64,000 nucleotides of DNA from Parcubacteria group bacterium ADurb.Bin192. Its GTDB lineage: Bacteria > Patescibacteriota > Patescibacteriia > 2-12-FULL-60-25. Shown piece by piece: positions 3,335 to 64,000 of the stretch. Numbering within the stretch: position 1 is the stretch's first letter; each line of letters starts with the position of its first letter. The position numbers and the translations under genes are program-made. Location: the NCBI GenBank assembly GCA_002070095.1, contig MWCR01000001.1, positions 186,001 to 250,000 of the forward strand. Direction: 5' to 3'. The notes under the pieces were generated by a model. It did not search any database and had not been told where the DNA came from. It saw only the letters and a program-made list of their open reading frames with translations.

Positions 3335-6300
3335 TTATTCGATAACTTGTTCTTCAATGATTTCCGCTTGAGGAACGGGCTCTATCTCGGGTTCCGGTAC
3401 TATAGATTCATTAGATTCAACCGGCTGACTCTCTTCTTGAGCCACGATCTCCAGCTCCTCTGAATACTCATTTTGCTCAACAGCCCCCTCATCAACCACA
3501 GCCGACTCATCAACCACCTCAGGCTCTTCAGGGACGGGCTGATCAGCTATCTGAGCGACCGGCTCGGTTTCTTCCACCGGGGCCGGAACCGGATTTGTGC
3601 CATTAGCGCTGATTTGGGTTTCGAGCTCCGAGGTGCCCATGTCATTGGTTTCAATGTCCAAAGTGGTACCGTTGCTGACGAAGACCTTGCCTTCATGACT
3701 GCCGAAAGCGTGCCAATTAAAGATTACATCAGTGTATTGAACTGTATCCAATACCAGGTCAAAGCCTTGCAAAGAAGCGTTTTCCACCCAATACGGCACC
3801 GTGACTTTGCCGGCCGGGGTTAGAGTAATGATGGGCAGAGTCCCATAATCCTCTTCAAAATCCACCCTGACCCTGGTATCGCCCACCAAAACCATGGCTT
3901 GACCAACCGTATCGCGGCCCATGGCCAAATGGCCTTTAACCGTAACATTGCCTTCAAAAACCGCGTTGGCCACCACCAAATCTACGGCTTCAACATTGTT
4001 TTCACCGCCCTGCAAAGAAGTGCCGGCTAATGAACCTTGCATGTTATTTTTATCAAATGATTCAAAGAAGACGGAAATCTTGCGATGCTTGACGCCATTG
4101 ATTGTTTCGGAGACATGAGTCCAATCAACTGATTGAGCGGCGCGAGCCACAATATGACTAACCATAAACTCACCCGTATCTTTTTCAGCATGTCCGGCCA
4201 CATCAGAAGAGATAAGATAATCACCGATATTGATATTTTCACCTTTATCAGCCACCCAAACTTCGCCATTACCCACAGCCATAATCAAATGTGGATTTTT
4301 ATTGCTGTGAGCCTTGCTCGGCTCTTGGAGTGATAAGTAAGCACCAATGACCTTGGAGTCATTAACAGCGGATGATTTAGTTACGCCGTAGATAATTTCT
4401 GACGCGGTATTACCGTTCAAATAACGATTCTCGCCCGTCAAAGTAACCAACAATCCCTTTTCCATAACCTCATCCGTCCAAGCATAGTGCGAACCAGTAA
4501 AAGCGTTGTAAGAGATGGTATTTCCGGATACCGAGATGGTTCCTTCTTCCACCCCATCCTGCCGTAATGAAACAATGGTTCCATCATCATTGGTACGATC
4601 AAACGCAGCCACAATACCGGCACTTTGTTCCACATTGACGCGCGCTTCTGTCGAAACAGTGCCAAAACCCACATTACCGCCGTTATCAAGATTCATGATT
4701 AAATTTGCTTGAGAATAAAATTGCAAGTCTCTTTGAACTTCAATCACCATGTTTCTATCATCCGTGGTACTGGCATACATACTCAAGTAGGCACCGTTGG
4801 CGCCGCCGGCAAGTCTGAACAAATTATCACCCGGCGTTGTACTGCCTAAAACATCCAATCTTCTGGAAGGCACGGTATTTCCAATACCAACGTTTCCGGC
4901 AGTGGAAATAACCATATCTCTGACCCAAGAACCGCTGTAATGACTGAAAGCAATATTGTTACTGGTATCCAATCCCATCTGCGCAATATCAACACCATCT
5001 CTTTGATACGTGGTATAAGCCGTGCCCTGGATGCCAGGCAAAGCGCCGTCTGTGGCACGGATAATCATTTGCCGGCTATAACCTCCGGAAGGCAAAATCC
5101 CGCCATCCCATTGACCTATTAACATGTTACCTCCGCTTAAAGTAAACAATTGTTCTGGTTGATCAGTACCAATGGCGAATCTGCCGTTTGTTTGCAATCT
5201 GAAATATTCATCGCCTTCGTTAAGAATCGTAAATGCGCCATCCGGGGCTTGTATCAAATCCCAAGTTGAAGTGCCGATATGAACATTGGTTGCCCATAAA
5301 TCCGACCAGCGCGAATCCGTATTGCCCAAACTGTAAGCACCATGAGTACCCGGAATGATATCACCGGTCGAAGTACCTCCGGCAAATTCAATCCAATTGG
5401 TTGTTGTAGCTCCGCGATCAGTGACATCTTGGAAAGTGTCAATTGTCAACGCGCTGGAACTGACCCAAGAAGCATTACCCGCTCCGTTGGTGATTAGGAT
5501 TTGTCCCGAATTACCATCAGTCGTCGGCAAAGCATAACCCGTGCTGGAAGGATTGTTGATCTGCAATGCCCCGTTGATTCTTAAAACATTAGTATCAAAT
5601 TCACCATAAACCAAAGGTGCAGACGTATTGGAATTATCTATATATAAACGATTCGAATTTGTTTCGCTGTAACCGGCTTGATAACCCAAGAAAATATTAC
5701 CACTGCCCAAAACATTGTTATTGCCGGCTTGTCTGCCTAAAAATAAGTTCCTAGTACCGGTGGTATTTGCGATACCCGCTTGATATCCTAAAAAGATATT
5801 GTCATTGCCGATCGATTTGCTGCCTGCTGAAACTCCCAAAAAGATATTGTCACTGCCTCTATTCTCATAACCAGCATTGGTTCCAAAGAATATATTATTA
5901 CTGCCTCGAGCATCATAACCCGTATAATAACCCATCATAATGTTATTATTACCCGTATTATACCAACCGGTACCGCGTCCCATGAAAAAGTTATCACTGC
6001 CCGTATTTTCCATGCCGGATTCATATCCGATCATAACATTGTTATTGCCGGAGGATTGATAACCGGCATAATAACCAACCATCGTACCGCCAAAAGCACC
6101 CGAATAATTTCTGCCTGCGCTATGGCCGATGGCTGTCGTGTTATTGGGAGCCGCATGATTGTATAATGCTTGATAACCCACTGCTACGTTGTATAGTCCG
6201 GTTGCGCTGTTATAACCGGCAGAAGAGCCAACATAAACATTTTGTCTGTTAGATAAATTATCAGCTCGTCCTGCATTTTGACCAAAAAATACCGAGTTAC

Positions 6301-9300
6301 CCGAATTTAAAACACTCAAATGCGGACCCTCCATGGTGAAATAATTTACATCTCCTGTAAAAAATCTTAAAATATCTTCATCCGGTAAATACTCAGTTGT
6401 GATTCCAGTATCATGCGTTACATCCCAGATTGCATTCGGAATTCCACCATTCAAAGCCTTCCATTCGCTTCCATTCCAGAAGAACGGTGTGGAAGAAGCT
6501 GTATTGTAGACCATAGCACCCGCTTGCAAACCGCTGGCCGGATTCAAAGCGTATTGACCGAGCATAAGTTGCGCGTTTACACGTGCGTCGCCTACCAAAT
6601 CCAAACGATATGCCGGAGTGGTTGTCCCGATACCAACATATCCCGTACTTGTAATTCTCATCCTTTCACTACCTCCGTTTTGGCCGATTGTAAACGCTCC
6701 ATCAGCGACCTGTGCCAAATCCCAAGTGGATGTGCCCACATGAACGGTTCCGGCCCAAAGATCGGACCAACGGTTGGTGGTACTGCCCAAGGAATAAAGA
6801 TTGGTTGTCGCCGGCAACAAACTTGAATTGGCTCTGGCCGTAAAGGTGATTGTATCTGAAGTTGCATCGCCCAGCACCGTATTACCGCCCACGTTCAAGC
6901 TGACTCCGGCCAATAAATCCAAACTATCCGTATCCAAGGTCATTCTGCTGGTTGGGGCTGTATAACCGCCCCCAACTTGGAATCTGATTAATGTGCCGGT
7001 ACCCACTGAACCGATAACTAAATTTTTATCCGTGGCCAACACACCATTGCCCGCCCAAGACGGTACGTAAAAATTAGATCCGTATTTACCGAAATAAATA
7101 TTATTGGTGAAATCCGCTCCACTGCCCTTAAGTTCCAAAACCGCTCCCGCGTAGTTGCTAGCATCATTGGTATTGACCGCCTTAAAACCTGTTAATGTAC
7201 TGGCGCTGTTATTTGTAACATTAACTTGATAGACAGCTGAATCAGTTGGAGACAATACATTGGTGTTCTTTTGCCAATGATTGGAATCCGCACCCGCTAA
7301 AGCAACCCAGCCCGTATTTCCTACATCCGTTGTCTTAACATACACTTGTTGGCCCGATCCCGTGCCATCAGTTCTATAATACATACTGCCGCTATAAGCC
7401 GTAACTTTGGCTTCCGGCGTACTGGTTCCCACCGACATTTTGATGTTATTTGTAAATTCACTGGCACCGCCGTTTCTTAATTGTAAGATGGGCACATTAT
7501 AATTTGTAGCCAAAATACTGAAAGCTCCTTGACTGGCCGATCCGGGGATCTGCAAAGCCATCTGGCTATAATCTATATAAAAATTACTGTCCCGCGTGCC
7601 CGATCTTTGATACCCGAATTCAAAAGACTCCGTGTTATTGTTCCAATTCATATAAGCTCCTGAACCATTTTCCGGATCACTTGTATCATCAGTAAAATAC
7701 ATTCTGGCGCCAAGATCTCCAAATTGTTCCATGGTTTGAATAGCCAACCCTCCTCCGTTAACAGCATTGGTCAAAGCCAAACTCGTTTCCCATTGATCGG
7801 TTCCCGGATTCAAAATCTCAACCGGATTGGCACTGTTTAAAGTATAAATCTGTCTGCCTAAAGCCGAACCTCCGGCATCATAAGCGGCTTGCAAGGTTGT
7901 AGTGGCAGATACTATGGCATTATCAACATAAGCTTTGTCAACCAAAGATCTGGCTACAAAATCCGCTGAATAATCACTTTCATAACGTAAACCATATCTT
8001 GAACCGGCAGCGCGAAAATCATAAAATTGATTATCGGCTCCAATATGTAAAACCGCATTATTTCCATACAGATCAACTTGACTGGTGCTCGCATCTATTT
8101 CAATGCCATGCTGGGAAACCATTTTGAAATTATCCATGAATTCCAAATAATGGTTGGTATTCCCTTCATCATTATTAACAGCTCCAATTCTTAAATTGCC
8201 GTTGGTATTGTAATCCGGTTGAAAATATAGAAAATTTGCAGGATTGCTTTGATCTGCAAACCTTAATTCATAACCATCAGCAATGGTAACATCGCGATCT
8301 TCGGGAATAAGACCGTCAGAATTATAAATGTTATAAACCAAATCCGATGATGTGGCCCAGCTCAATGTTCCGGCGCCATCTGTAATTAATACCTGATTGT
8401 TAGTACCATCGGCACTTGGCAGAGTCCAAATTGTATTACCCGTTAAAGCTGTAGGCGCAATAAAGCCAACATATTCACCGCCGAATTGATCCATCAATCT
8501 CAATTCACTGTGTGATAATTCTATGGCATTGGCCCCGTAGTTAACTTGCATGGATGTTCCAATGCCTCCGTAATCCAAATCACCAAAACCAACTACCAAA
8601 TCATTGCCAGCCACGCTGCCTCCGGCTCTAAAGACATTTTCACCATTCTCGTCTCTAAAATTGGCTATGTTCAGCATGCCCGAAATACCGGCAACTGAAA
8701 ATGAAGAAGCCTCATGAGAACCCGGCCCTACCATTAACAACGATACCAATGGATTATCTGTTCCGATTCCTACATAACCATCATTTCTAATATACATCCT
8801 CTCAACTCCCGCTGTATCAAATCTAATGTAATCCTCGTCAGCCGATTCCTCTACCTGCACACCCGTGTCATGATCCTCATCCCACAATGAACTGCGTACA
8901 TCTTCGGCCGTAGCCACGGTTCTCCATTGCGTGCCATCCCAATAATTGATGGTGGATGAAGAAGTTTTATACACCAATGAGCCGGCTTGATAACCGCTGA
9001 CCGGTAAAGACGCATAACGTCCCAACATGAATTGACCGGACAAACGTGAATCACCGGCAACATCCAAGCGATAAGCAGGAGTGGAGGTTGATAAACCAAT
9101 ATTACCATCACCGGCAACAGTCATTCTTTCATTACTATTAGTATATATTCTATAGGGTACATTTCCGTTAACCATAAACCCTGCGTCAAAAGGAGATGAA
9201 AAGGTTTTACCGGTCACGACTCCGTTGTTGGCGAATTCAATAAAAGCCGCGTCAGATCCATTGGCATGATCTGAATTTATGTAAATCCCCGCATCTTGCC

Positions 9301-12064
9301 CATCCGCATTGCCATCATCCGAATCAAGCGTTAAAACAGCGCGTCCATTTAATCCACCTTGTACATGTAATAAAGTAACCGGAGCGGCTGTACCTATGCC
9401 CAGTTGACCCGCTGAAGTTAAGACAAATGGACTTGGATCCGAAGCCGCGTCCTCTATCCATAAAGACGGTCCTGTGCCGATATTACGCATCCAAAAAGCT
9501 TCCGCCGTACCGTTGTGAATGTTGTAATATGCTCTGGCGCCGTCATCTGTATTGATTTCGACGGCATTACCTCCGTTTAATGGTTTATCGATCAGTAATC
9601 CTGTTTTACCGCCAATATCATACATCTCAATACCGGGCTCCGAACTCATATTATAAACAAATAAACCCGTGCCCGTAGCATTATTATTAATTTCAATACC
9701 CCTATTACCCGTATTATTATCCAATAACATGCCATAACCCGCGCTTTGTCTTATATATAAACCTGTACCCAAAGGCGACATACTGCGAATCTGCATACCA
9801 TAACCAGTACCCGTATTTTCAATCCAAGCACCAAAATTTGATCCAGCATTATTCAATCTGAAACCTACACCGTCATTGGGATTATCTATATATAAGCCAA
9901 TGCCATTACTAGTACTATTATCGAATCTGGCTCCATAACCAGTACCCTGATTTCTGGAATAAAAGCCAGATCCCGCGCCCATATTCCGTGCGCTGAAAGC
10001 ACTACCATTGCCTAAATTATTAACCCACAAACCTTCCGCATCAGTGGAGTGAGTCACCGACATGAAGCCTAGAGTACCGGTTGTGTTGGTAATTTCAATG
10101 GGGCCGGCGTCGGTTATAATGAATTTACCTGCTCCAAAACCTCCTCCATCATAAGCCAAATCCAAAGTCACCTGATCTGCAACTGTTCCTGTGGCAAAAG
10201 CTATCCATTGCGTTCCATCCCAATAATAAGGTACAAGATCCGCTGTATTATAAATCATGGATCCCGCTTGATTGCCCGCAACCGGATTTATTGCATAGCG
10301 TCCCAACATGAATTGTGATGTCAAACGGGCATCACCCGCAACATCCAAACGATAGGCCGGTGTATCGGTTGCAAAACCAAAGTTACCCATGTCAGTCATG
10401 TGCAGGCGAACAAAACCATCTTGATTAATTCCAAAGGTCGTACTGGCAGCCAAATCAAAACCTGAACCCGAAGTTCCTCCTAAAAATTTTGCGCTTTGTA
10501 CACCATTATTCATAAAAATCAAATATGCCGCATCAGAACCATTAATATTGTCGGAATTAATAATGATACCCGCATCCATGCCCATGGCATTGCCATCTTC
10601 GGAATCCAGTGTCAATAAAGCCGCCCCATTGGCACCGCCTTGAACATGTAATAAAGTTGACGGAGCATTTGTTCCGACACCCACAAAACCGATAGAACTG
10701 ATTACCATTCTGGAAAGCCAAGCTGAACCATCCCAATGATCAAAGTTAATGCTGTTGTTGGGTGTTATGCCGAATCTCGCTATATCTGTGGTATCACGTT
10801 GGAAATATGTATAAGCAGATCCCTGAATACCCGGTGAAAAACCGTCTGTAGCTCTTAAAATAAAATTCGCGCTCTTGCCTCCCGGAGGAATAATACCTTC
10901 ATATTGTCCGACCAACAAAGTATCACGAACGGACAACATTTGTTCCGGAGCTCTAATGCCTATACCAACCGCTCCATTTGTTAAAATCCTTATCCTTTCA
11001 CTGCCTCCGTTTCTACCTATGGTGAATGCTCCGTTATCAGCTTGACCTAAATCCCAGGTAGAAGTGCCTACATGAACAATACCGCTCCAAAGCTCTGCCC
11101 AGCGTAAATCCGAATTGCCCAAAGTATAAGTGTCATGCGCTCCGGGAATGATGTCGCCCACTGATGTTGCTCCCGCGAATTGAATCCTATTGGTCGTCGT
11201 ATTCCCATTATCCGTCACCTGTTGCAAATCCATGGCATGCAGGGTGGATGAGACGGTGGTGATGGCCGTATCCAAGTCAAACAAAGCCGCTTGCACGGTG
11301 GTGGCATTGGAGTTGGTGAATTCATCAAAGACTCCGACAAGGTAAGCACCTGATGTTTGATTGTTGGTACCTATGGCATCAAGCCTGATGGCTCCGATGG
11401 CCAAGTATTGAGTGAGATTAAGAGATGTGCCGGTAGCCACGCTGAAAGTGACTTGCTGGAGAGTGGAAGTGCCGTTAATAAATAAGCCGGCACCCGTAAA
11501 GGTTCCGGTAGCGATGTTGAAGTTTAAATTGCTGTCTAAAGCCAATAATTGGTTGGCCGTAGCGGTTGAAGTGGCTTCAAACCCGTTTAGTCTGTAAGCA
11601 TTTAAAGCATAAGGGTGAGAAGAGAGCTGGACTCTGGGGCTGGCTTCGGCATCGGCTCCGATTTTAACACCCACATACATGACTTCGCTGAAGTCAAGAT
11701 AGGCTGGGAAAGGAGTACAAGAGCCTAACTTAAGGAAAAAGTAGCCTTTGGCATCAGGGGTGATCATGGAACAAGCGCCTGATCCTTGGTCATACACTTC
11801 TTTCCAGACCAAGGGCCCCGCTTGTGCCGGCGCGTCTCCCGGAGCTCCGTTGGTGGGATGGAGGTAGAATGAGAGCTGGATGGCCGTGGTGGAAGTGACG
11901 GCCAAGCCGCCCGGGGTCAACAACCTGCTTTGGTAGTTGATGGTCTGGGGGATGGCGGCGTCTGCCTGCCGGATATTAAAAACCGGCGTAATGGCAAAAA
12001 TTACTGCCATTACACCAGCCAAAGCAACGCGCACGCGAAGGTACGACTTGATGGAAAGAAACAT
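3335..12064 (-). CDS. Giant secreted repeat adhesin (2909 residues)
   Basis: A signal peptide (residues 1-36) is followed by the same N-terminal module as the 857-residue protein. The body repeats units with FAGATS, LGNSDLRW, VHVGTSTWDL, VGIGT.AP and AGDARL..QFMLGRYA. Residues ~1940-2140 contain about eleven ~19-residue units of the form GYQAG..N..GS.NIFLG, a pattern seen in adhesin head and tail-fibre proteins. A segment with IRATDG.PGIQG occurs twice (about residues 390 and 2320). The region near 2500-2650 (NIGDYLISSDVAGHAEK) resembles terminal chaperone or autoprocessing regions of fibre proteins, but no S74 signature is seen. The last ~100 residues are acidic and Pro-rich. A long surface fibre is inferred. 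Confidence 0.85.
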   Translation of the reverse strand: MFLSIKSYLRVRVALAGVMAVIFAITPVFNIRQADAAIPQTINYQSRLLTPGGLAVTSTTAIQLSFYLHPTNGAPGDAPAQAGPLVWKEVYDQGSGACSMITPDAKGYFFLKLGSCTPFPAYLDFSEVMYVGVKIGADAEASPRVQLSSHPYALNAYRLNGFEATSTATANQLLALDSNLNFNIATGTFTGAGLFINGTSTLQQVTFSVATGTSLNLTQYLAIGAIRLDAIGTNNQTSGAYLVGVFDEFTNSNATTVQAALFDLDTAITTVSSTLHAMDLQQVTDNGNTTTNRIQFAGATSVGDIIPGAHDTYTLGNSDLRWAELWSGIVHVGTSTWDLGQADNGAFTIGRNGGSERIRILTNGAVGIGIRAPEQMLSVRDTLLVGQYEGIIPPGGKSANFILRATDGFSPGIQGSAYTYFQRDTTDIARFGITPNNSINFDHWDGSAWLSRMVISSIGFVGVGTNAPSTLLHVQGGANGAALLTLDSEDGNAMGMDAGIIINSDNINGSDAAYLIFMNNGVQSAKFLGGTSGSGFDLAASTTFGINQDGFVRLHMTDMGNFGFATDTPAYRLDVAGDARLTSQFMLGRYAINPVAGNQAGSMIYNTADLVPYYWDGTQWIAFATGTVADQVTLDLAYDGGGFGAGKFIITDAGPIEITNTTGTLGFMSVTHSTDAEGLWVNNLGNGSAFSARNMGAGSGFYSRNQGTGYGARFDNSTSNGIGLYIDNPNDGVGFRLNNAGSNFGAWIENTGTGYGMQIRSMSPLGTGLYIRQSAGYGMLLDNNTGNRGIEINNNATGTGLFVYNMSSEPGIEMYDIGGKTGLLIDKPLNGGNAVEINTDDGARAYYNIHNGTAEAFWMRNIGTGPSLWIEDAASDPSPFVLTSAGQLGIGTAAPVTLLHVQGGLNGRAVLTLDSDDGNADGQDAGIYINSDHANGSDAAFIEFANNGVVTGKTFSSPFDAGFMVNGNVPYRIYTNSNERMTVAGDGNIGLSTSTPAYRLDVAGDSRLSGQFMLGRYASLPVSGYQAGSLVYKTSSSTINYWDGTQWRTVATAEDVRSSLWDEDHDTGVQVEESADEDYIRFDTAGVERMYIRNDGYVGIGTDNPLVSLLMVGPGSHEASSFSVAGISGMLNIANFRDENGENVFRAGGSVAGNDLVVGFGDLDYGGIGTSMQVNYGANAIELSHSELRLMDQFGGEYVGFIAPTALTGNTIWTLPSADGTNNQVLITDGAGTLSWATSSDLVYNIYNSDGLIPEDRDVTIADGYELRFADQSNPANFLYFQPDYNTNGNLRIGAVNNDEGNTNHYLEFMDNFKMVSQHGIEIDASTSQVDLYGNNAVLHIGADNQFYDFRAAGSRYGLRYESDYSADFVARSLVDKAYVDNAIVSATTTLQAAYDAGGSALGRQIYTLNSANPVEILNPGTDQWETSLALTNAVNGGGLAIQTMEQFGDLGARMYFTDDTSDPENGSGAYMNWNNNTESFEFGYQRSGTRDSNFYIDYSQMALQIPGSASQGAFSILATNYNVPILQLRNGGASEFTNNIKMSVGTSTPEAKVTAYSGSMYYRTDGTGSGQQVYVKTTDVGNTGWVALAGADSNHWQKNTNVLSPTDSAVYQVNVTNNSASTLTGFKAVNTNDASNYAGAVLELKGSGADFTNNIYFGKYGSNFYVPSWAGNGVLATDKNLVIGSVGTGTLIRFQVGGGYTAPTSRMTLDTDSLDLLAGVSLNVGGNTVLGDATSDTITFTARANSSLLPATTNLYSLGSTTNRWSDLWAGTVHVGTSTWDLAQVADGAFTIGQNGGSERMRITSTGYVGIGTTTPAYRLDLVGDARVNAQLMLGQYALNPASGLQAGAMVYNTASSTPFFWNGSEWKALNGGIPNAIWDVTHDTGITTEYLPDEDILRFFTGDVNYFTMEGPHLSVLNSGNSVFFGQNAGRADNLSNRQNVYVGSSAGYNSATGLYNVAVGYQALYNHAAPNNTTAIGHSAGRNYSGAFGGTMVGYYAGYQSSGNNNVMIGYESGMENTGSDNFFMGRGTGWYNTGNNNIMMGYYTGYDARGSNNIFFGTNAGYENRGSDNIFLGVSAGSKSIGNDNIFLGYQAGIANTTGTRNLFLGRQAGNNNVLGSGNIFLGYQAGYSETNSNRLYIDNSNTSAPLVYGEFDTNVLRINGALQINNPSSTGYALPTTDGNSGQILITNGAGNASWVSSSALTIDTFQDVTDRGATTTNWIEFAGGTSTGDIIPGTHGAYSLGNTDSRWSDLWATNVHIGTSTWDLIQAPDGAFTILNEGDEYFRLQTNGRFAIGTDQPEQLFTLSGGNMLIGQWDGGILPSGGYSRQMIIRATDGALPGIQGTAYTTYQRDGVDIAQMGLDTSNNIAFSHYSGSWVRDMVISTAGNVGIGNTVPSRRLDVLGSTTPGDNLFRLAGGANGAYLSMYASTTDDRNMVIEVQRDLQFYSQANLIMNLDNGGNVGFGTVSTEARVNVEQSAGIVAAFDRTNDDGTIVSLRQDGVEEGTISVSGNTISYNAFTGSHYAWTDEVMEKGLLVTLTGENRYLNGNTASEIIYGVTKSSAVNDSKVIGAYLSLQEPSKAHSNKNPHLIMAVGNGEVWVADKGENINIGDYLISSDVAGHAEKDTGEFMVSHIVARAAQSVDWTHVSETINGVKHRKISVFFESFDKNNMQGSLAGTSLQGGENNVEAVDLVVANAVFEGNVTVKGHLAMGRDTVGQAMVLVGDTRVRVDFEEDYGTLPIITLTPAGKVTVPYWVENASLQGFDLVLDTVQYTDVIFNWHAFGSHEGKVFVSNGTTLDIETNDMGTSELETQISANGTNPVPAPVEETEPVAQIADQPVPEEPEVVDESAVVDEGAVEQNEYSEELEIVAQEESQPVESNESIVPEPEIEPVPQAEIIEEQVIE

Positions 12065-54697: not shown

Positions 54698-57184
54698 ATG
54701 CTAAACCAAGACGCTGTGGCCAAAGCCACTTGGGAGGGAAGCGAGAAGGTCTCGCCACGTCTGTCCAAGATACTGGGTTATCTGATAGACGCCTGCATTT
54801 ACGCCAGTGTGGCGCTGGTGCCTTTATTCTTTTTACCCATTACGCTGGATGTGCTGGAGCTGAATAAGCAAAGTTTGCTTATCATATTGGTTATGCTCGG
54901 CATGGCCGCCTGGTTGGGCAAAGGCTTGGCCGAAAGACGATTTATTTTATCCAGAGCCTGGCTGCATTTGGTGGTGACTTTGTTTGCCGGCGGCTGGCTG
55001 GTGACCAGTTTGTTCTCTCAGGACAAGTATATTTCTTTGGTCGGCAACATCGGTCAGATGCAATGGTCTTTCGCTACCATGCTGGCCTTTGTGGTTTTTT
55101 ACATGCTGGTGGTCAACCGCGTGGGCACAACCAAAAGATTGTATAATTTGGTTTTAACCTTTTTAGTCTCGTCAATTCTGGTGGGCTTATATGGATTTTT
55201 TCAATTATTGGGCATTTATCCTTTGAGCTGGCTGGCGGCCTTTACCTCGGCCAAGACTTTCAACACGGTCGGCACGATCAATGCTTTTGGAGTGTACATG
55301 GCCGTGCCTTTGGTTTTGGCGGTTTCGTTAACTGTTTTCGGCTGTAAAGATGATGAATGCAAATTGGGCAAAAAATCCAAAGGCAGTGTGGCGGCTAATG
55401 TGATCGTCTGGTTGACCTTGTTGGTTTCTTTGCTGGTGGCCGTAGCGGTTGATTTTTGGGTGGTTTGGGCCGCTATCATTTTCGGCACGGCTTTATTGAT
55501 TATTCTGCCCATTGTCAGGGCTTTGAAGGTCAATCACGTTTCACGTGTGGTAGTGCCGGCGGTTATTATCTGTGTATCTATTTTGTTGCTCATCTTCAAA
55601 ACTCCGGTTAAGTTGAATTTGCCGGCTGAAGTATCGCCCTCGGCTACAGCTTCTTGGAGCATTGCCAAGAATGTGTTGAGTGAAGCCCCGATTTTTGGCT
55701 CCGGCCCAGGAACTTGGATTTATGATTACGCCAAATACAGATCTCCGGCTGTGAACCTGTCTCAATTTTGGACGGTCAGATTTGAACGCGGTTTAACCAC
55801 CTTCTTCACTTTGATTGCCATGACCGGTTTGGTGGGCATTGCCATGTGGCTTATATTATTGATATCGGCCATTGCCACCAGCGCTGTGCATCTGGTTAAG
55901 GAAAAGGATGATGATGCTTGGCAGGCTTATCTGACGATTTTCGCGGGTTGGGCCACCATGGCTTTTATCGCTTTCCTGTATAACTACAATTTTGCGCATC
56001 ACTTTGTGTTCTGGTTTTTACTGGCCTTGCTCTCGGCCTTGATTGCTAAAAAGGCTTTTGTCTGGGATTCACAAAAAAGCGTGGCCACTTCCACTATTAT
56101 TTCGATTTCCTTTATCGTTATTTGCGTGGCCGCTTTATCAACCGTGTGGCTGGCCGGGCAAAGACTGGCGGCTGATGCCTCATACTCCAAGGCGGTCATG
56201 ACTTACCGAGATGGTAAAAATATTGATGAGGTTATCGGTCATCTGAACAAGTCAGTGGTCATGAACAGGTTGAACGATGTGTATTATCGTAACTTGTCAC
56301 AAGCCTATTTGATCAAAGCCGCTCAAGTATTTGAAGCCGAGAAAAATAATCCGGAGGGAGCAGCCATAATCAATCAAGTGATTGCAGCTACTATTGATAC
56401 GGCTAAAAAAGCCGGAGAAATTAATCCTTCCAATGTTGATAATTGGGAGAATATGGCGGTCATTTATCAATCCATTGCCGGGTTTATTCAGGGCGCGGAC
56501 GAGTTTGCCATCAAAAATTTTGAAGAGGCTTTGGCACGCGAGCCTAATAATCCGGTGTACGGCGCGGAAATAGGCAAGATATATGTTTTGCGGTCCGATG
56601 CTTACCGCACCCTGCTTCAAGCTGAAGACGAGGGTGAGCGCAAAGAGGCTGAACGCAAGGTTAAGGAGGAATTGGATAAGGCGGCTGAATGGTTTAATAA
56701 ATCCATTCAAGCTAAACCTGATTTCGCGCCCGCGCACTATCAATTGGGCTTGGTGTATGAAAGACAGGGCCGTATTCAGGATGCCATCTCCAAGCTGGAA
56801 GAAGTAGTGGCCAACAGCAAAGACGTGGGAGTGGCTTTCCAATTAGCCATCCTCTATTATCGCAATGACGAGAAAGACAGATCCATTAACTTGTTCGAGC
56901 AAATCGTGGCCATGGCTCCGGAATATGCTAACGCCAGATGGTTCTTGTCCGCCTTGTATGAAGAAAAAGGAGAATTGGACAAATCTCTGGAGCAAGTCTT
57001 AAAGGTTCAAGAAACCAATCAAGACAATCAGGATGTGGCCAACAGAATCAAGTATTTACAAGATTTAAAAGCCAAAGGCAGTCAGCCGGCACCGGTTCCG
57101 GCTCCTCAGCCAACCATCCCGGCCCCGGTTGAAGAAAAGATAACCGGTCCTGAAGAGCAAAACCCAATTCAAAAAGCCGAATAA
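54698..57184 (+). CDS. O-antigen ligase/Wzy-like membrane protein with TPR domain
   Basis: 828 residues. About 12 membrane segments up to residue ~490, with a large loop that holds GSGPGTWIYDYAKYRSP, the region where ligases and polymerases of this group keep catalytic residues. The C-terminal half is a TPR array (NNPVYGAEIGKIYVLRSDAY, PDFAPAHYQLGLVYERQGRI, YANARWFLSALYEEKGEL) ending in a Pro-rich tail. Such Wzy_C/TPR proteins are common in this group and probably transfer or polymerise surface glycans or glycosylate proteins. Follows PBP1A on the same strand. Confidence 0.85.
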   Translation: MLNQDAVAKATWEGSEKVSPRLSKILGYLIDACIYASVALVPLFFLPITLDVLELNKQSLLIILVMLGMAAWLGKGLAERRFILSRAWLHLVVTLFAGGWLVTSLFSQDKYISLVGNIGQMQWSFATMLAFVVFYMLVVNRVGTTKRLYNLVLTFLVSSILVGLYGFFQLLGIYPLSWLAAFTSAKTFNTVGTINAFGVYMAVPLVLAVSLTVFGCKDDECKLGKKSKGSVAANVIVWLTLLVSLLVAVAVDFWVVWAAIIFGTALLIILPIVRALKVNHVSRVVVPAVIICVSILLLIFKTPVKLNLPAEVSPSATASWSIAKNVLSEAPIFGSGPGTWIYDYAKYRSPAVNLSQFWTVRFERGLTTFFTLIAMTGLVGIAMWLILLISAIATSAVHLVKEKDDDAWQAYLTIFAGWATMAFIAFLYNYNFAHHFVFWFLLALLSALIAKKAFVWDSQKSVATSTIISISFIVICVAALSTVWLAGQRLAADASYSKAVMTYRDGKNIDEVIGHLNKSVVMNRLNDVYYRNLSQAYLIKAAQVFEAEKNNPEGAAIINQVIAATIDTAKKAGEINPSNVDNWENMAVIYQSIAGFIQGADEFAIKNFEEALAREPNNPVYGAEIGKIYVLRSDAYRTLLQAEDEGERKEAERKVKEELDKAAEWFNKSIQAKPDFAPAHYQLGLVYERQGRIQDAISKLEEVVANSKDVGVAFQLAILYYRNDEKDRSINLFEQIVAMAPEYANARWFLSALYEEKGELDKSLEQVLKVQETNQDNQDVANRIKYLQDLKAKGSQPAPVPAPQPTIPAPVEEKITGPEEQNPIQKAE

Positions 57185-58292: not shown

Positions 58293-58804
58293 GTAATGTT
58301 CAATTTTCAAATATCCAATCATCAATAACCAATCATCAATAACCAAGGTTGTCATTCCCGGCTTAGTAAGCAAAATACCTAACTACGCTAATTAATTAAA
58401 TCGGTCCCGACACTCGCAAAAAATTATATACTCAATCGGGATCCCGAATCACAGTATCGGGAGAATCCACCTTTAATTACTCAATAACCAATAACCAATA
58501 ACCAAATAATTGGAAGGCATTATGGTATTTTTATGTATTAAATATTGTTGATAAGTATGTTGATAAGTAGGTTGGATGAGCATGAGCTACGGAAGGTCGG
58601 ATTTGGTGTATTCACAATTTATGAACAAGGATGAAAAATGAGAAAGGTATTGCTATTATTAGCCGAAATAGATTATATATACGCGTGTTAAAATAATTAC
58701 GAGCTTGAGAACAGGTCAGGCGCGCGCATGTTTATGGCTGTATTTTCTGAATTGCGATTTGCTGACCTGTTTTAAATTTTAAAACAAGCTCAAAAATAAA
58801 TTGT
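58293..58804. repeat. Gene-free region upstream of the right-hand adhesin
   Basis: Carries CAATAACCAATCATCAATAACC-type short tandem words (58318-58350 and 58480-58505), the palindromic element 58405-58462, and TGTTGATAAGTA twice (58545-58575). No gene seen; the adhesin promoter must lie here. Confidence 0.5.
58405..58462 (-). repeat. Palindromic element TCCCGAYACT, copy 3
   Basis: Inverted relative to copies 1 and 2; ends TCCCGACACT and AGTATCGGGA, 58 bp. Confidence 0.7.
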
Positions 58805-61800
58805 ATGCCGCCAAACAAATCCGGCATTAAACAAAAACAGCTCTGTTTAATCAATAAACTAAGAATACAAATCTCATACATTTGTATATTTTGTTTTGTC
58901 ACAGCGCTATTTGGAGTTTTGACCGTCAATATACAGCGGTCATGGGCTGAAATCGATAAAAGCATCAACTATCAAGGGCGCTTGATGAGTGCTTCGGGTA
59001 TTAATGTTTCGGATGGCACTTACTCCATGAAGATTTCCATCTACAACCAAGCTTCGGGAGGTTCTCATTTATGGTCAGCCAGCACTACTAATGGGCTACC
59101 GGCAGGTACACCGGCCAATATACAAGTTGAAGTCAAAAATGGCTTATTCAGCATCCTTTTAGGTGATACTAACAATGATCAAGTGGCTTTTCCGGCAGGC
59201 TTGTTTAACAATGATACTCTCTACTTAGGCATAACAGTTGGTTCAGACAGTGAGATGACCCCCAGAAAAAGACTGTCAGCCGTCCCCTATGCCTATAATT
59301 CGCAAACTTTACAGGGTCAATACGCTTCCAACACCGTAGCCAGTACGGGCGGAGACTTATTTGCCTTGCATCAAAGCTCTAATGACAGTGCTTCAGCCGA
59401 AAGAACAGCTTTAGCCATCTACACATCAGGTACCAACAATCTTTATGACCTCTTAATCAAAGCCAATTCAGGCTCTGATGTCTTTTCAGTTTCCAGACAA
59501 GGCAGTGTTACCACCACCGGTAACTTACAGGTTGATGGCATCACTCAATTAGGCAGTACCCTGTCCGTGGCCGCCACTTCATCCTTGGCTGACTTATCCC
59601 TCACCGGCCGAGTCAACTCCAATCTCTTGCCTTACATTACTGATACCTACTCTTTGGGCAACTCCACTTACAGATGGCTGGGCATCACAGCACAAAACGT
59701 GAATACGGTTAACGTCTCATCCACCAATATTGATGCCTTGGGGTATGTGTCGACCACGAATTTATACTCAACTGAGTCAATTTTGGGCAATGCCACGACC
59801 ACCAATTTGTATAACTCGGGCACGGTTTCAACCACGGCTTTGTACGTCAACGGAGTAGCCATCACCGGAGCCGGCGCAACGACAACTTGGCAACAGGTAA
59901 CTGATGTCGGCGCCACAACCAACAATTGGATCCAATTCGCGGGCGCCACATCCACAGACAACATTGTTCCCAACTTAACCAACTCTTTGACTTTGGGAAC
60001 AGAGAACTATCAGTGGTTGGGAATTTTTGCTCAAAATGCAGATTTCACCAACGTCTCAACAACCAACTTGGATGCTTCCGGTTATATCGTCACCAACAAT
60101 CTCACAGCTACCAATGCTGACTTGACCAACGTCTCCAGCACCAACATCGATGCCTCCGGTTACATCACAGCCAACACCTTAAACTCAAACACAGCTAATC
60201 TTGGCAACGTCACCTCAACAAACCTATACAACTCCGGCGTCGTCTCAACCACATCTCTATACGTAAACGGTGTAGCAGTCACAGGCATCGAAACTCAAGA
60301 CTTTCAAGATGTCACAGACTTGGGCGTTGCCACAACCAATTGGATTCAATTCGCGGGTGCCACTTCAACCAACAACTTCTTGCCCGGTACCACGGATTTA
60401 TATACTTTAGGCTCTTCCGCATATCGTTGGGCCAATCTTTTTGCGGTCAACGGCAATGTTATCAATGTAAGCTCAACCAACATCGATGCTTCAGGCTACA
60501 TCACAGCCAACACCTTAAACTCCAACACTGCTCTCTTGGGCAACGTTACCACAACCAACTTGTACAACTCGGGCGTTGTCTCCACCACATCCCTTTACGT
60601 CAACGGCACGCAAATTACAGGTCTTGAATCACAAGACTTGCAAGATGTCACAGACTTGGGAGCAGTCACAACCAACTGGATCCAGTTCGCGGGTGCCACT
60701 TCAACCAACAATCTCGTTCCAACTTCAACCAATCTCTATTCTCTCGGCACATCAGTTTACCGCTGGAGCGATGTTTGGGGTGTGGCTATGCATATCGGGA
60801 CATCTACATGGGATTTGACGCAAGGAACCAATGGCAGATTCATGGTCGGCAATAACAATTTGGAGAGATTAACCATTACGGTTGACGGCAATGTCGGCAT
60901 TGGGACCAGCACACCCGGAGCCAATTTGGTGGTCAATGACGGTACAATTTTAAATTACGCTGGTAATAGTATATGGCAATCAGCAGCCGATGAAGATACT
61001 CATGCAACTTTTGATTCAACTATGGTTGAATACAATGGGAAGATGTATGTTTTTGGGGGTTTAAGTTATGATCCGGATACTTTTACTTATTATACAACAA
61101 GTTCTTTAAGGATTTATGACCCGGCAACGGATACCTGGGAAATCAGCTCTGTTCTAGATACGCAATACGAACGTTACTCTCATGGAGCGGTAGTTTGGGA
61201 TGATAAGATGTTGGTTTTTGGTGGATATGATGAAAATTTTAACGCAACCAGCTCTTTACGTATTTATGATTTTATCAGCGAAACATGGTCATCCGGTGCG
61301 AGCGCAAACTCCAATCAAGCGGCTCATTCGGTTGTATTAAGCGGTGGAACCTTAATCGCTTATGGAGGTGATGATGGTTCCGGTTTTGTTGACATTGTTC
61401 AAATATACGATTATGACACTGATTCTTGGAGTTATGGGGCATCGAACAGTATTAGGCAGTTCGGCCACTCGGCTGTTGTTTATGGGACCAAAATGTATGT
61501 TTTTGGAGGAGAAGATGATGATACGGGTGACAGGCTCGACGACATATATATTTATGATATAAAAAATGATATCTGGAGCAGTGGCACCGAGGATACCGGA
61601 AATTTCCGTAGATTTCACGAAGCCGTAGTACTTGATAATAAAATGTATGTCTTTGGAGGACAAGACCCGGATATAGATTTTTTATCGGATTTACGAGTTT
61701 ATGATTTCTTGTCAGATTCTTGGAGTGCGGGATATTCAGATCCGGCATTTCCAAGAAATTCTTTCAGCATGGCAGTATATGATGGTGTTATTTACGTGAC

Positions 61801-64000
61801 CGGAGGTTTGGACAGTTATTCCGAGCCTGCACTTATTACAACCAGATATCTTGATACAACCAATCTCGATATTGTTGATTATATCGCCTCCCTGCGCAAC
61901 ATGGGAACTTCGGAACTAACATTTAAATCAGATGCGGTTTTGAATCTGGATATCGGCAAGTGGTCCATCATGGAAGGCGATGTCGGTATTGGATTATTAA
62001 ATCCAACCGAGGATCTTGATGTTTATGGAAATATCCAAAATATTTTATATCAGCAACAAGCATTTCCGGTTGTGGCAACATCATCTTTTGCTAATGGTTG
62101 CAGTGGAAGCATTACGGGCGGCAGAGTTGTTGGTGATTATATTTACTTTGCACAGACCGGCGGCTGTCAGTTCCTTGTTGCTGAAGCAAGTAATCCCCGA
62201 AGAATAAATCCCATAGGGAGCGCCGCAGGATCTAATGCCGACAATCCATTAATCATAGGTAATTACTTATATCTGCCTGCGGAAGAAATTTATATATATG
62301 ATATTTCCAATCCCGCTTCGGAAGTCATGGTTGATACATATAACACCAATTTGGATTTTGTCTATGATATTGAGAGGTATGGAAACTACATTTTGGTTGC
62401 CAATAATGGCAATGATGAGCTAACGGTTCTGGATATCACCAATCCAATAAGTCCGGTTGAAGTGGCAAATGTTGGTGTTGGCACCAGCCCTTGGGCTTTG
62501 GCTGTTCAGGGCGCTTACGCTTACACAGCCGACCAAGACGGAAACTCCGTATCCATAGTCAATGTTTCCAATCCGCTGGATCCGGCATTTATTGATTCCG
62601 TCTTTTTAGACGCGGATTTCAGACCGTTCGATGTGGCTGTCAGCGGAAGATATGCTTATGCCGTGGGCTCCTATAATTTTGGAGACGCGGGTGATTTATA
62701 TGTTATTGATATCGGCAATCCCAATTTTGCTTCCGTGGCAACAACTCTTAGAGTAACTACCGGCAAAGGCGGATTAAATGAAATCATAGTTTCCGGACGT
62801 TATGCATATGTTTCCAGTATCAGCGGAATTCATGTTATTGATCTTATCGACCCGGAAGATCCTGTGCTTTTGGGCAGTGTAGATGGAAACTTTCAAGGAG
62901 CCGTATTAAACGGACGCTATCTATACGGCACCAACAGTGATAATGGTTTGGTTTATACTATTGATGTCCATGGCACCGAAACCAATGGTCTTTTGGCGCA
63001 CTCCGCCGAATTGGGCACCCTGAATGTACGGCAGTCATCCATGTTCGCGGATAATATTTTTGCCCAAGGCGGCCTATCTGTCGGATCACCGGGCATCTAC
63101 TCCATGGGTTCTTTGGGTGTTTATGCAACCACATCCCTTATGGATCTGGCTGTGAACGGCCGAGTCAACTCCAGTCTCCTGCCTTACATCACAGATACAT
63201 ATTATCTCGGCAACTCCACTTACAGATGGCTGGGCATGGCCGTGGCCAACGTATCTTCAACCAACATCGATGCCTCCGGCTACGTCTCCACCACATCTCT
63301 TTACGTCAACGGCACACAAATAACAGGTGCTACTCCAAGTCTCCAACAAGTAACTGATGTCGGCTACATCACCAACGACGCCATCGGCTTCGCCGGAGCT
63401 TCATCCACGGGTCACTTCCTGCCAACAGCCAACATCACATACGACCTTGGCTCCACCTCATTCCGCTGGAGAAATCTTTATGCTTCAAACGGAATCTTCA
63501 CCAATGTCAGCTCAACCAACATTGATGCTTTGGGCTATGTTTCAACGACAAACTTGTATTCAAACACGGCACTCTTGGGCAACGTCACCACAACCAACTT
63601 ATACAACTCTGGTGTCGTCTCAACCACACAACTATACGTCAACGGCGTAGCTGTCACCGGCATCGAAGCTCAAGACTTCCAAGATGTCACAGACTTGGGT
63701 GTTGCCACAACCAACTGGATTCAATTCGCGGGCGCTACTTCAACCAATCATTTCTTGCCCGGTACCAACAATCTCTTCAACTTGGGATCTCTTGCGTATC
63801 GCTGGGCGAATCTTTTCGCCGTCAACGGCAACTTCACCGGCACTGTCACAACAACAAACCTATTTGCATCCGGCTACGTCTCCACAACCAGCTTATACGT
63901 CAACGGCACACAAATCACAGGCGCTACTCCGACTTTGCAAGAAGTGACAGACGAGGGTTATGTTACGACCAATCCCATCAGATTCGCCGGAGCTTCATCA
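58805..64000 (+). CDS. Giant secreted adhesin with Kelch and LVIVD beta-propellers, C-terminus outside window
   Basis: Open from ATG 58805 to the window edge, 1732 codons without a stop. A basic N-terminus and the segment ISYICIFCFVTALFGVL act as signal, followed by INYQGRLMSASG, the same start as the other adhesins. Repeats of about 120 residues (VSSTNIDASGY, LGNVTTTNLYNSGVVST, SLYVNGVAVTG, TNWIQFAGATSTN, LGSSAYRWANLF) lie at about 295-690 and again from ~1455. Between them sit six Kelch blades (KMYVFGG and variants, residues ~735-1015) and about seven LVIVD blades (GRYAYVSSISGIHVIDLIDP, residues ~1090-1390). Probably a surface stalk presenting two binding heads. Confidence 0.88.
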   Translation, partial: MPPNKSGIKQKQLCLINKLRIQISYICIFCFVTALFGVLTVNIQRSWAEIDKSINYQGRLMSASGINVSDGTYSMKISIYNQASGGSHLWSASTTNGLPAGTPANIQVEVKNGLFSILLGDTNNDQVAFPAGLFNNDTLYLGITVGSDSEMTPRKRLSAVPYAYNSQTLQGQYASNTVASTGGDLFALHQSSNDSASAERTALAIYTSGTNNLYDLLIKANSGSDVFSVSRQGSVTTTGNLQVDGITQLGSTLSVAATSSLADLSLTGRVNSNLLPYITDTYSLGNSTYRWLGITAQNVNTVNVSSTNIDALGYVSTTNLYSTESILGNATTTNLYNSGTVSTTALYVNGVAITGAGATTTWQQVTDVGATTNNWIQFAGATSTDNIVPNLTNSLTLGTENYQWLGIFAQNADFTNVSTTNLDASGYIVTNNLTATNADLTNVSSTNIDASGYITANTLNSNTANLGNVTSTNLYNSGVVSTTSLYVNGVAVTGIETQDFQDVTDLGVATTNWIQFAGATSTNNFLPGTTDLYTLGSSAYRWANLFAVNGNVINVSSTNIDASGYITANTLNSNTALLGNVTTTNLYNSGVVSTTSLYVNGTQITGLESQDLQDVTDLGAVTTNWIQFAGATSTNNLVPTSTNLYSLGTSVYRWSDVWGVAMHIGTSTWDLTQGTNGRFMVGNNNLERLTITVDGNVGIGTSTPGANLVVNDGTILNYAGNSIWQSAADEDTHATFDSTMVEYNGKMYVFGGLSYDPDTFTYYTTSSLRIYDPATDTWEISSVLDTQYERYSHGAVVWDDKMLVFGGYDENFNATSSLRIYDFISETWSSGASANSNQAAHSVVLSGGTLIAYGGDDGSGFVDIVQIYDYDTDSWSYGASNSIRQFGHSAVVYGTKMYVFGGEDDDTGDRLDDIYIYDIKNDIWSSGTEDTGNFRRFHEAVVLDNKMYVFGGQDPDIDFLSDLRVYDFLSDSWSAGYSDPAFPRNSFSMAVYDGVIYVTGGLDSYSEPALITTRYLDTTNLDIVDYIASLRNMGTSELTFKSDAVLNLDIGKWSIMEGDVGIGLLNPTEDLDVYGNIQNILYQQQAFPVVATSSFANGCSGSITGGRVVGDYIYFAQTGGCQFLVAEASNPRRINPIGSAAGSNADNPLIIGNYLYLPAEEIYIYDISNPASEVMVDTYNTNLDFVYDIERYGNYILVANNGNDELTVLDITNPISPVEVANVGVGTSPWALAVQGAYAYTADQDGNSVSIVNVSNPLDPAFIDSVFLDADFRPFDVAVSGRYAYAVGSYNFGDAGDLYVIDIGNPNFASVATTLRVTTGKGGLNEIIVSGRYAYVSSISGIHVIDLIDPEDPVLLGSVDGNFQGAVLNGRYLYGTNSDNGLVYTIDVHGTETNGLLAHSAELGTLNVRQSSMFADNIFAQGGLSVGSPGIYSMGSLGVYATTSLMDLAVNGRVNSSLLPYITDTYYLGNSTYRWLGMAVANVSSTNIDASGYVSTTSLYVNGTQITGATPSLQQVTDVGYITNDAIGFAGASSTGHFLPTANITYDLGSTSFRWRNLYASNGIFTNVSSTNIDALGYVSTTNLYSNTALLGNVTTTNLYNSGVVSTTQLYVNGVAVTGIEAQDFQDVTDLGVATTNWIQFAGATSTNHFLPGTNNLFNLGSLAYRWANLFAVNGNFTGTVTTTNLFASGYVSTTSLYVNGTQITGATPTLQEVTDEGYVTTNPIRFAGASS

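Follow-up and report, generated by a model that had tools for sequence, protein, structure and literature searches.

Two predicted beta-propellers of different families within a giant, phage-tail-fibre-like protein of a Patescibacterium

The fibres of the mosaic adhesive trimer (MAT) superfamily are located on the surface of the predator Bdellovibrio, where one member binds prey glycans, and in the account given in PMC10769870 these proteins (Bd3182 and others) are about 1000 amino acids long, start with a conserved, beta-rich N-domain of about 130 amino acids after the signal peptide, continue as a phage-fibre-like shaft in which three chains intertwine into a beta-helix, and contain an S74 chaperone with the motif SDxxxK; many paralogues are present per genome, and the modular binding domains are located at the C-terminal tip. 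S74 domains chaperone trimeric beta-helices and then cut themselves off (PMC10769870); for Bd3182, S74 cleavage has been published together with the exchange S782A. The main text of the same paper nowhere uses the word "propeller". The endosialidase tailspike of phage K1F is described as a homotrimer whose active site lies in a beta-propeller; its stalk is a beta-helix, and the C-terminal chaperone is removed by cleavage (PMC12632334). In the eBAP3 fibres of eCIS, propellers (lectins) are the proposed binding modules on tail-fibre-derived shafts (PMC12923769), and the type IV pilin PilX2 of Saccharibacteria, a candidate host adhesin, places a seven-bladed propeller on the filament of a Patescibacterium (PMC12206443). 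Among open-licence papers, no title was found on such fibres in Uhrbacteria, Patescibacteria or the candidate phyla radiation.

The giant fibre described here comes from a genome that groups with Candidatus Uhrbacteria and other Patescibacteria. Its N-domain, which follows a signal-peptide-like segment, has remote sequence similarity to that of the MAT fibres; it shares with them the S74 chaperone with SDxxxK and the phage-fibre-like shaft, and its family likewise has many paralogues per genome and modular binding domains; it differs from them in its size of 3952 amino acids, in binding domains that are propellers along the shaft, and in a second, Peptidase_G2-like, C-terminal domain (PMC10769870). 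With the K1F tailspike it has the order of parts in common, namely propeller, stalk and a C-terminal chaperone predicted to be cleaved off (PMC12632334). The eBAP3 fibres resemble it in carrying propellers, but they have collagen-like shafts and TNFR-like tips and belong to an injection machine (PMC12923769), whereas the propeller of PilX2 is of the RCC1 type and its type IV pilus is an unrelated scaffold (PMC12206443). The Kelch and LVIVD families are here both inserts of one fibre. The K1F tailspike differs from it in being a short phage protein with one propeller, which is an enzyme, and it is not known to contain a Kelch or LVIVD domain. What is known, in short, are S74/MAT-like fibre adhesins; new are the giant size, the propellers along the shaft, the extra G2-like domain and the rare Kelch.

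The window, that is, the whole stretch of 64,000 nucleotides that was analysed (G000:C1:186001-250000), contains the first 1732 of the 3952 amino acids of this open reading frame (58805..64000, plus strand, as are its parts listed here); 2220 residues are encoded beyond the window, up to the stop at L009:12664. A hydrophobic N-terminal segment (about amino acids 17-48, 58853..58948), recognized by eye in the translation as a signal peptide or anchor, precedes the N-domain (amino acids 50-178, 58952..59338) and a first stalk of Ser/Thr/Asn-rich DTYxLGxxxYRW repeats (amino acids 180-695, 59342..60889). The VGIG motif NVGIGTSTPGANLVVND (60890..60940) lies at the joint preceding the six-bladed Kelch propeller (amino acids 724-1016, 60974..61852), the closing strand of which is WQS in positions 724-726. 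A linker (61853..62068), which has low pLDDT in the model and contains a second VGIG motif at amino acid 1060 (DVGIGLLNPTEDLDVYG), leads to the seven-bladed LVIVD propeller (amino acids 1089-1387, 62069..62965), closed by its own N-terminal strand. The AHSAE linker (amino acids 1391-1455, 62975..63169) is of a kind seen after most LVIVD propellers of the fibre family, and behind it a second stalk with the repeat type of the first (63170..64000) leaves the window; YadA-head-like repeats, the S74 domain and the Peptidase_G2-like domain follow in this order. The DTYxLGxxxYRW repeats flank the propellers (amino acids 282-645, then from about 1470), in agreement with the statement of the sequence-only reading that tail-fibre-like repeats resume after them, and its placement of the propellers at 60990-63020 was right to within a few codons. 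Taken together, translation and models describe a predicted secreted, phage-tail-fibre-like scaffold with two different closed propellers and a stalk that resumes after them.

Kelch_1 (PF01344) and LVIVD (PF08309) both exceed their Pfam cut-offs in the giant fibre. In the in-window part of the reading frame six stretches match Kelch_1 (E 2.3e-49) and five match LVIVD (E 1.6e-17, 63 bits against a cut-off of 20.2); the GG and W repeats of the former close into a six-bladed ring in the model, and the latter consists of LVIVD repeats of about 42 amino acids that form seven blades in the model. AlphaFold2 was run on single chains, each propeller with its own alignment, because a joint alignment placed Kelch rows on the LVIVD part. 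The Kelch model (amino acids 696-1082, 8-row alignment) has a mean pLDDT of 77.7 (90-96 in most blocks of the propeller) and consists of six four-stranded blades, the last strand of blade six being the N-terminal strand 724-726. The mean pLDDT of the LVIVD model (amino acids 1059-1456, 21-row alignment) is 83.0, and its 28 strands make up seven blades, of which the last is closed by the strand 1089-1094; strands were assigned to blades by hand from DSSP lists. Both propellers are thus predicted to close, with high model confidence. The sequence-only reading had proposed two different propellers in one fibre protein, with six Kelch and about seven LVIVD blades, and had suggested an HMM search for both families and a structure prediction in which closure would decide; on all these points it is borne out.

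Foldseek places the Kelch model with Kelch domains (E 3e-22) and the LVIVD model closest to seven-bladed WD40-type propellers (E 3.4e-12). In the fold comparison by VIA-align, which covers only structures that Foldseek ranks high, the best solved fold for the Kelch model is the Kelch domain of NS1-BP (5yy8, Z 38.9, rmsd 1.7 over 278 residues), and the LVIVD model reaches a Z of about 33 with the beta-TrCP/RACK1 group, where top rows such as 9t8y (rmsd 2.2 over 285) and 4aow (2.0 over 274) are tied. Sequence searches of the PDB match the Kelch part to 9tsn, the designed SAKe6 propellers and KLHL20, and the LVIVD profile to the 6-phosphogluconolactonase-like ybhE (1ri6) at 2.5e-11. A single-protein query with the Kelch domain of this fibre returned no viral relative.

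Likeness to phage proteins is detected by PHROGs, where the C-terminal third, beyond the window, matches tail spike (4.3e-85) and virion protein profiles; one stalk part matches tail fibre (1.3e-5). Within amino acids 1913-3330 there are 26 N[TV]A[IVLMF]G units (NTAIG-type, as in YadA heads), interrupted by stalk at about 2251-2700; the term "YadA-head-like" is our reading of these repeats, with no Pfam match behind it. Trimeric autotransporters of the YadA type have a C-terminal barrel (YadA_anchor) that anchors them in the outer membrane. YadA_anchor is absent from the 11 Pfam families found at E <= 0.1 in the 3952-amino-acid protein, and assignment to this type was rejected. The S74 domain (PF13884, amino acids 3414-3463) scores 28.5 bits against the Pfam cut-off of 22 and contains the motif SDVRAKK (SDxxxK); S[DE]xxxK is present in 8 of the 13 S74 matches of the fibre set, and a search of the PDB with the S74 piece by sequence gave only a single chance-level row. 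The Peptidase_G2-like domain (about amino acids 3576-3800) matches PF11962, the family of phi29 gp12-type self-cleaving chaperones, at 5.5e-4, with 19.9 bits against a cut-off of 25. Ten of the 21 G2-like domains of the family match PF11962 (best E 5.7e-8), and the G2-like profile finds the phi29 preneck appendage 3gqh at E 0.027. The protein ends with one more C-terminal domain and a tail that is acidic and rich in proline.

As to the MAT superfamily, the N-domain of the giant fibre matches NF053851 (Bdello_MAT_N) at E 3.8e-6 with 26.8 bits, the curated cut-off being 60. All 29 aligned N-domains of the family match this NCBIfam model (best E 1.6e-9), and no other NCBIfam family matches more than two of them. 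Matches at E <= 0.01 are present in 25 of the 96 genomes, all below the cut-off of 60 bits, which is reached in none of the 96. Neither the N-domain nor the first stalk has a PDB match by sequence. Judged by these profile scores, the N-domain is remotely related to that of the MAT fibres and falls outside membership by NCBI's rule. The S74 domain with SDxxxK is shared with the MAT fibres, but MAT fibres carry their diversified adhesive domain C-terminally, whereas the propellers of the giant fibre are internal (amino acids 724-1387 of 3952), with stalk and YadA-like repeats still to come after them. Because the position of the binding domains differs and the N-domain is under the curated cut-off, the giant fibre is not filed here as a MAT member; it most likely works like a MAT fibre.

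The N-domain is present in 47 of the 96 relatives, often in several copies, and five times in the source genome, where three of the matches, the giant fibre included, lie in the window. A named GTDB set gave 49 N-domain loci, mostly labelled Patescibacteria group, Uhrbacteria, Magasanikbacteria, Falkowbacteria or Moraniibacteriota, with one labelled Calditrichota. The N-domain closest to ours among the named ones (70%) belongs to a long fibre ORF on a contig (L095) of a MAG labelled Candidatus Thermoplasmatota archaeon, where a further fibre-like ORF adjoins it; the contig probably comes from Patescibacteria and was mis-binned. Two ORFs of the family, at G077:C1:322820 and G036:C33, are larger than the giant fibre (5481 and 5918 amino acids). 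In the source genome, both the end of contig C1 (L009:13531-16185) and the start of C11 (L010:1-13872) fall within fibre ORFs that carry LVIVD heads, and these may be one gene of more than 5000 amino acids across an assembly gap.

Heads were surveyed with local HMMs seeded from the fibre's own blades and run on the ORFs of 63 regions; these had been picked by matches to N-domain or head queries, and head frequencies are therefore biased. By this HMM count there are 83 head-like runs of at least four blades, 80 of them LVIVD and three Kelch. In the fibres of relatives, AHSA linkers and stalk separate successive LVIVD propellers, each of six to seven blades; six runs are present in a fibre of G008 (C27), eight in one of G019 (C4), and eight, some of them short, in a 4623-amino-acid ORF of the source genome (C11). 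The AHSA linker follows 62 of the 80 LVIVD propellers. The VGIG motif, searched by HMM within 75 amino acids before the head, precedes 25 of the 80 LVIVD and one of the three Kelch runs, and a fixed VGIG joint before every head was rejected on these counts. Among 31 ORFs with both N- and C-domain, the local HMMs detect no head in 22, one in three, two in four, and four and five in one each; heads are therefore not needed for the scaffold. LVIVD propellers are an ordinary cassette of the fibre family, with up to eight runs per fibre, and since such cassettes are common, a unique invention of the source genome was rejected.

Kelch_1 is found in nine of the 96 relatives, and inside fibres only in the source genome (one ORF) and in G021 (two ORFs, L072 and L073); no Kelch run is present in the 49 named loci. 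In each of the G021 ORFs the Kelch propeller is seven-bladed, belongs to a WTGSKMIVWGG subtype and is located behind six LVIVD runs. The two subtypes, with six versus seven blades, suggest that Kelch was recruited into fibres twice. Separate lipoprotein-like Kelch ORFs in G021 and G037 (431, 421 and 415 amino acids) also have the WTGSKMIVWGG subtype, and to judge by this likeness they are a possible source of the fused G021 head. Those of G037 (L085:942-3375, in the fibre locus) sit between the fibre end and a TPR membrane gene, and that of G021 (L167:1991-3283) is beside a TPR membrane gene. A class-wide search with the Kelch domain of this fibre matched 19 of 380 genomes, in which Kelch ORFs of more than 1000 amino acids occur in the source genome, twice in G021, once in G058 (with no fibre part by local HMMs) and once in G105; one place in G037 has a 1023-amino-acid frame. 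The unusual part of the giant fibre is its Kelch propeller, LVIVD being standard. The sequence-only reading had called the stalk with two propeller heads a striking design; this is changed here in that the Kelch head, found in fibres of two genomes, is the unusual one.

The fibre of a genus-mate, G008 (L038, 2193 amino acids, S74 present), matches amino acids 2-710 of the giant fibre at 65%, diverges first directly behind NVGIGTSTPGANLVV, and has no match to the Kelch part (717-1040) or the LVIVD part (1101-1396); later blocks align again within 1397-1830 (59%), 2251-2700 (62-65%) and 3406-3952 (48%). Across the family, the best blastp partner is better inside the genus for 20 of 26 N-domains, 14 of 17 C-domains and 17 of 17 G2-like domains, whereas for heads this is the case in 32 of 60. 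The median best-partner identity of heads is 34.4% inside and 34.3% outside the genus, the outside pool offering more partners, equally so for scaffold domains. On these comparisons the scaffold domains keep genus-level signal and the heads do not. Within genus g14, the heads of G037 pair as follows: head 1 with G033 head 2 (62%), head 2 with G033 head 1 (48.5%), and head 3 with the first head of a G021 fibre (73%); two heads within one fibre of G009 are 83% identical. The DNA of the paralogue adjoining the giant fibre is 90% identical over amino acids 64-293, then abruptly diverges and is largely unalignable. The alignments fit gain, loss, duplication and reordering of heads, but for most heads fast change in situ, with no exchange, may have removed the genus signal just as well. 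The head swapping that the sequence-only reading wished to see surveyed finds partial support: the missing genus signal and the different order in G037 and G033 speak for it, and divergence in place fits as well.

Upstream of the giant fibre, a gene on the plus strand (54698..57184) encodes a multi-pass membrane protein with a C-terminal TPR part. Pfam and PDB matches confirm the TPR part alone; the membrane part matches no Pfam family and no PDB entry. Homologues lie directly downstream of 13 of 39 fibre 3' ends (those with at least 700 nt of following sequence), on the same strand and less than 400 nt away, and upstream of the fibre in the source genome and in G008. The protein is a likely candidate for a functional partner of the fibre and perhaps, by our own reading, an O-antigen ligase or glycosyl ligase with TPR. 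Two further fibres of the family, identified by N-domain search, are located on the minus strand: one of 2909 amino acids (3335..12064) and an 857-amino-acid ORF (589..3162). The head HMMs found no propeller in either. They adjoin each other, and their identical N-domains suggest a recent duplication or gene conversion. Short tandem repeats are present between tRNA-Ala and the start of the giant fibre (58310-58346 and 58546-58574; a 14-mer in 2.6 and a 12-mer in 2.4 copies). Beyond the window, in the coding start (paralogue leader) of a neighbouring fibre, the heptamer AATTACG is repeated 3.7 times (L009:13725-13750); a change in its copy number would shift the frame, which makes it a possible on/off switch of that fibre.

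We consider it probable that the giant fibre serves an ultrasmall Patescibacterium as a secreted MAT-like adhesin, probably a trimer, whose shaft carries exchangeable propeller heads along its length. Three chains would intertwine into one shaft, the formation of which would be chaperoned by the S74 domain before it cuts itself off at Ser3414, and the N-domain would stay at the cell surface. The propellers would project sideways as binding heads; as the N- and C-terminus of a closed propeller are side by side, a head could be inserted or removed without breaking the shaft. Head sets would be gained, lost, duplicated and reordered, tracking changing binding partners, which would most likely be molecules of host or prey cells, either sugars or proteins. 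The S74 domain suggests a homotrimer, in which case there would be six heads per fibre, "two heads" being the number per chain. The shaft would be, as a rough estimate, of the order of 0.2 µm long, taking the length of Bd3182 (about 550 Å, PMC10769870) as the yardstick for its about 2700 residues outside the propellers. That the fibre attaches to a host cell, as the sequence-only reading had it, is plausible by precedent. A more far-reaching version, which we offer tentatively and with more doubt than belief, is a plug-in adhesin of the Uhrbacteria group: a MAT-like shaft with reusable joints (VGIGxxxPxxxLxVxG before many heads, the AHSA linker after most), in which propellers would be inserted, copied, reordered and replaced, Kelch would have been recruited at least twice independently, and the head set would determine which host cells can be held.

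Could the heads serve something other than recognition of a host? A fibre so large and so rich in Ser, Thr and Asn, with several family copies per genome (five N-domain matches in the source genome), could be a structural or protective coat or bind to itself in aggregates or a biofilm matrix, but the heads change much more quickly than the scaffold does, and they are gained and placed in new order, for which a changing external partner is the better fit, and the related MAT fibres are on a predator surface, with one of them binding prey glycans (PMC10769870); we regard a coat or self-binding as unlikely. Rather unlikely, too, is that the propellers are enzymes that cut the surface polymer of a neighbour, as in the K1F endosialidase tailspike, a homotrimer with a propeller active site and the same order of parts (PMC12632334). 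The seven-bladed head does match enzymes weakly by sequence (the 6-phosphogluconolactonase-like ybhE, a phosphotriesterase), yet the closest propellers, by sequence as well as by fold, are of the binding type (KLHL/Keap1, RACK1, beta-TrCP) or designed, and no glycosidase or lyase family of Pfam was matched in the giant fibre.

The PHROGs matches to tail spike, virion protein and tail fibre profiles, together with the propeller lectins of contractile-injection fibres (PMC12923769), would also be expected if the gene were part of a prophage or tailocin and the propellers bound the receptor for that particle. However, the neighbours examined encode a penicillin-binding protein, an ABC transporter and the TPR membrane protein, and the family is spread over 47 of 96 relatives, frequently with more than one copy each; we regard this origin as very improbable. 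That unrelated genes were joined by an assembly or frame artefact has next to no probability in our judgement: contigs do break within these repetitive genes, and the two Kelch contigs of G021 are only about 10.5 kb long, but 3952 codons are read without a stop, the reading frame stops about 3.5 kb short of the end of its contig, which is 260 kb long, and blocks of scaffold before and after the heads align with the fibre of another species.

A MAT-like adhesin with exchangeable heads would have consequences for how these organisms can be studied. Both heads are compact, self-contained domains that are directly expressible for binding screens. If the fibres are the grip by which a cell is held, the head inventory would give a handle on host range that can be read from sequence. 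If true, one shared fibre design would tie together an episymbiont lineage, the predator Bdellovibrio and the tail fibres of phages.
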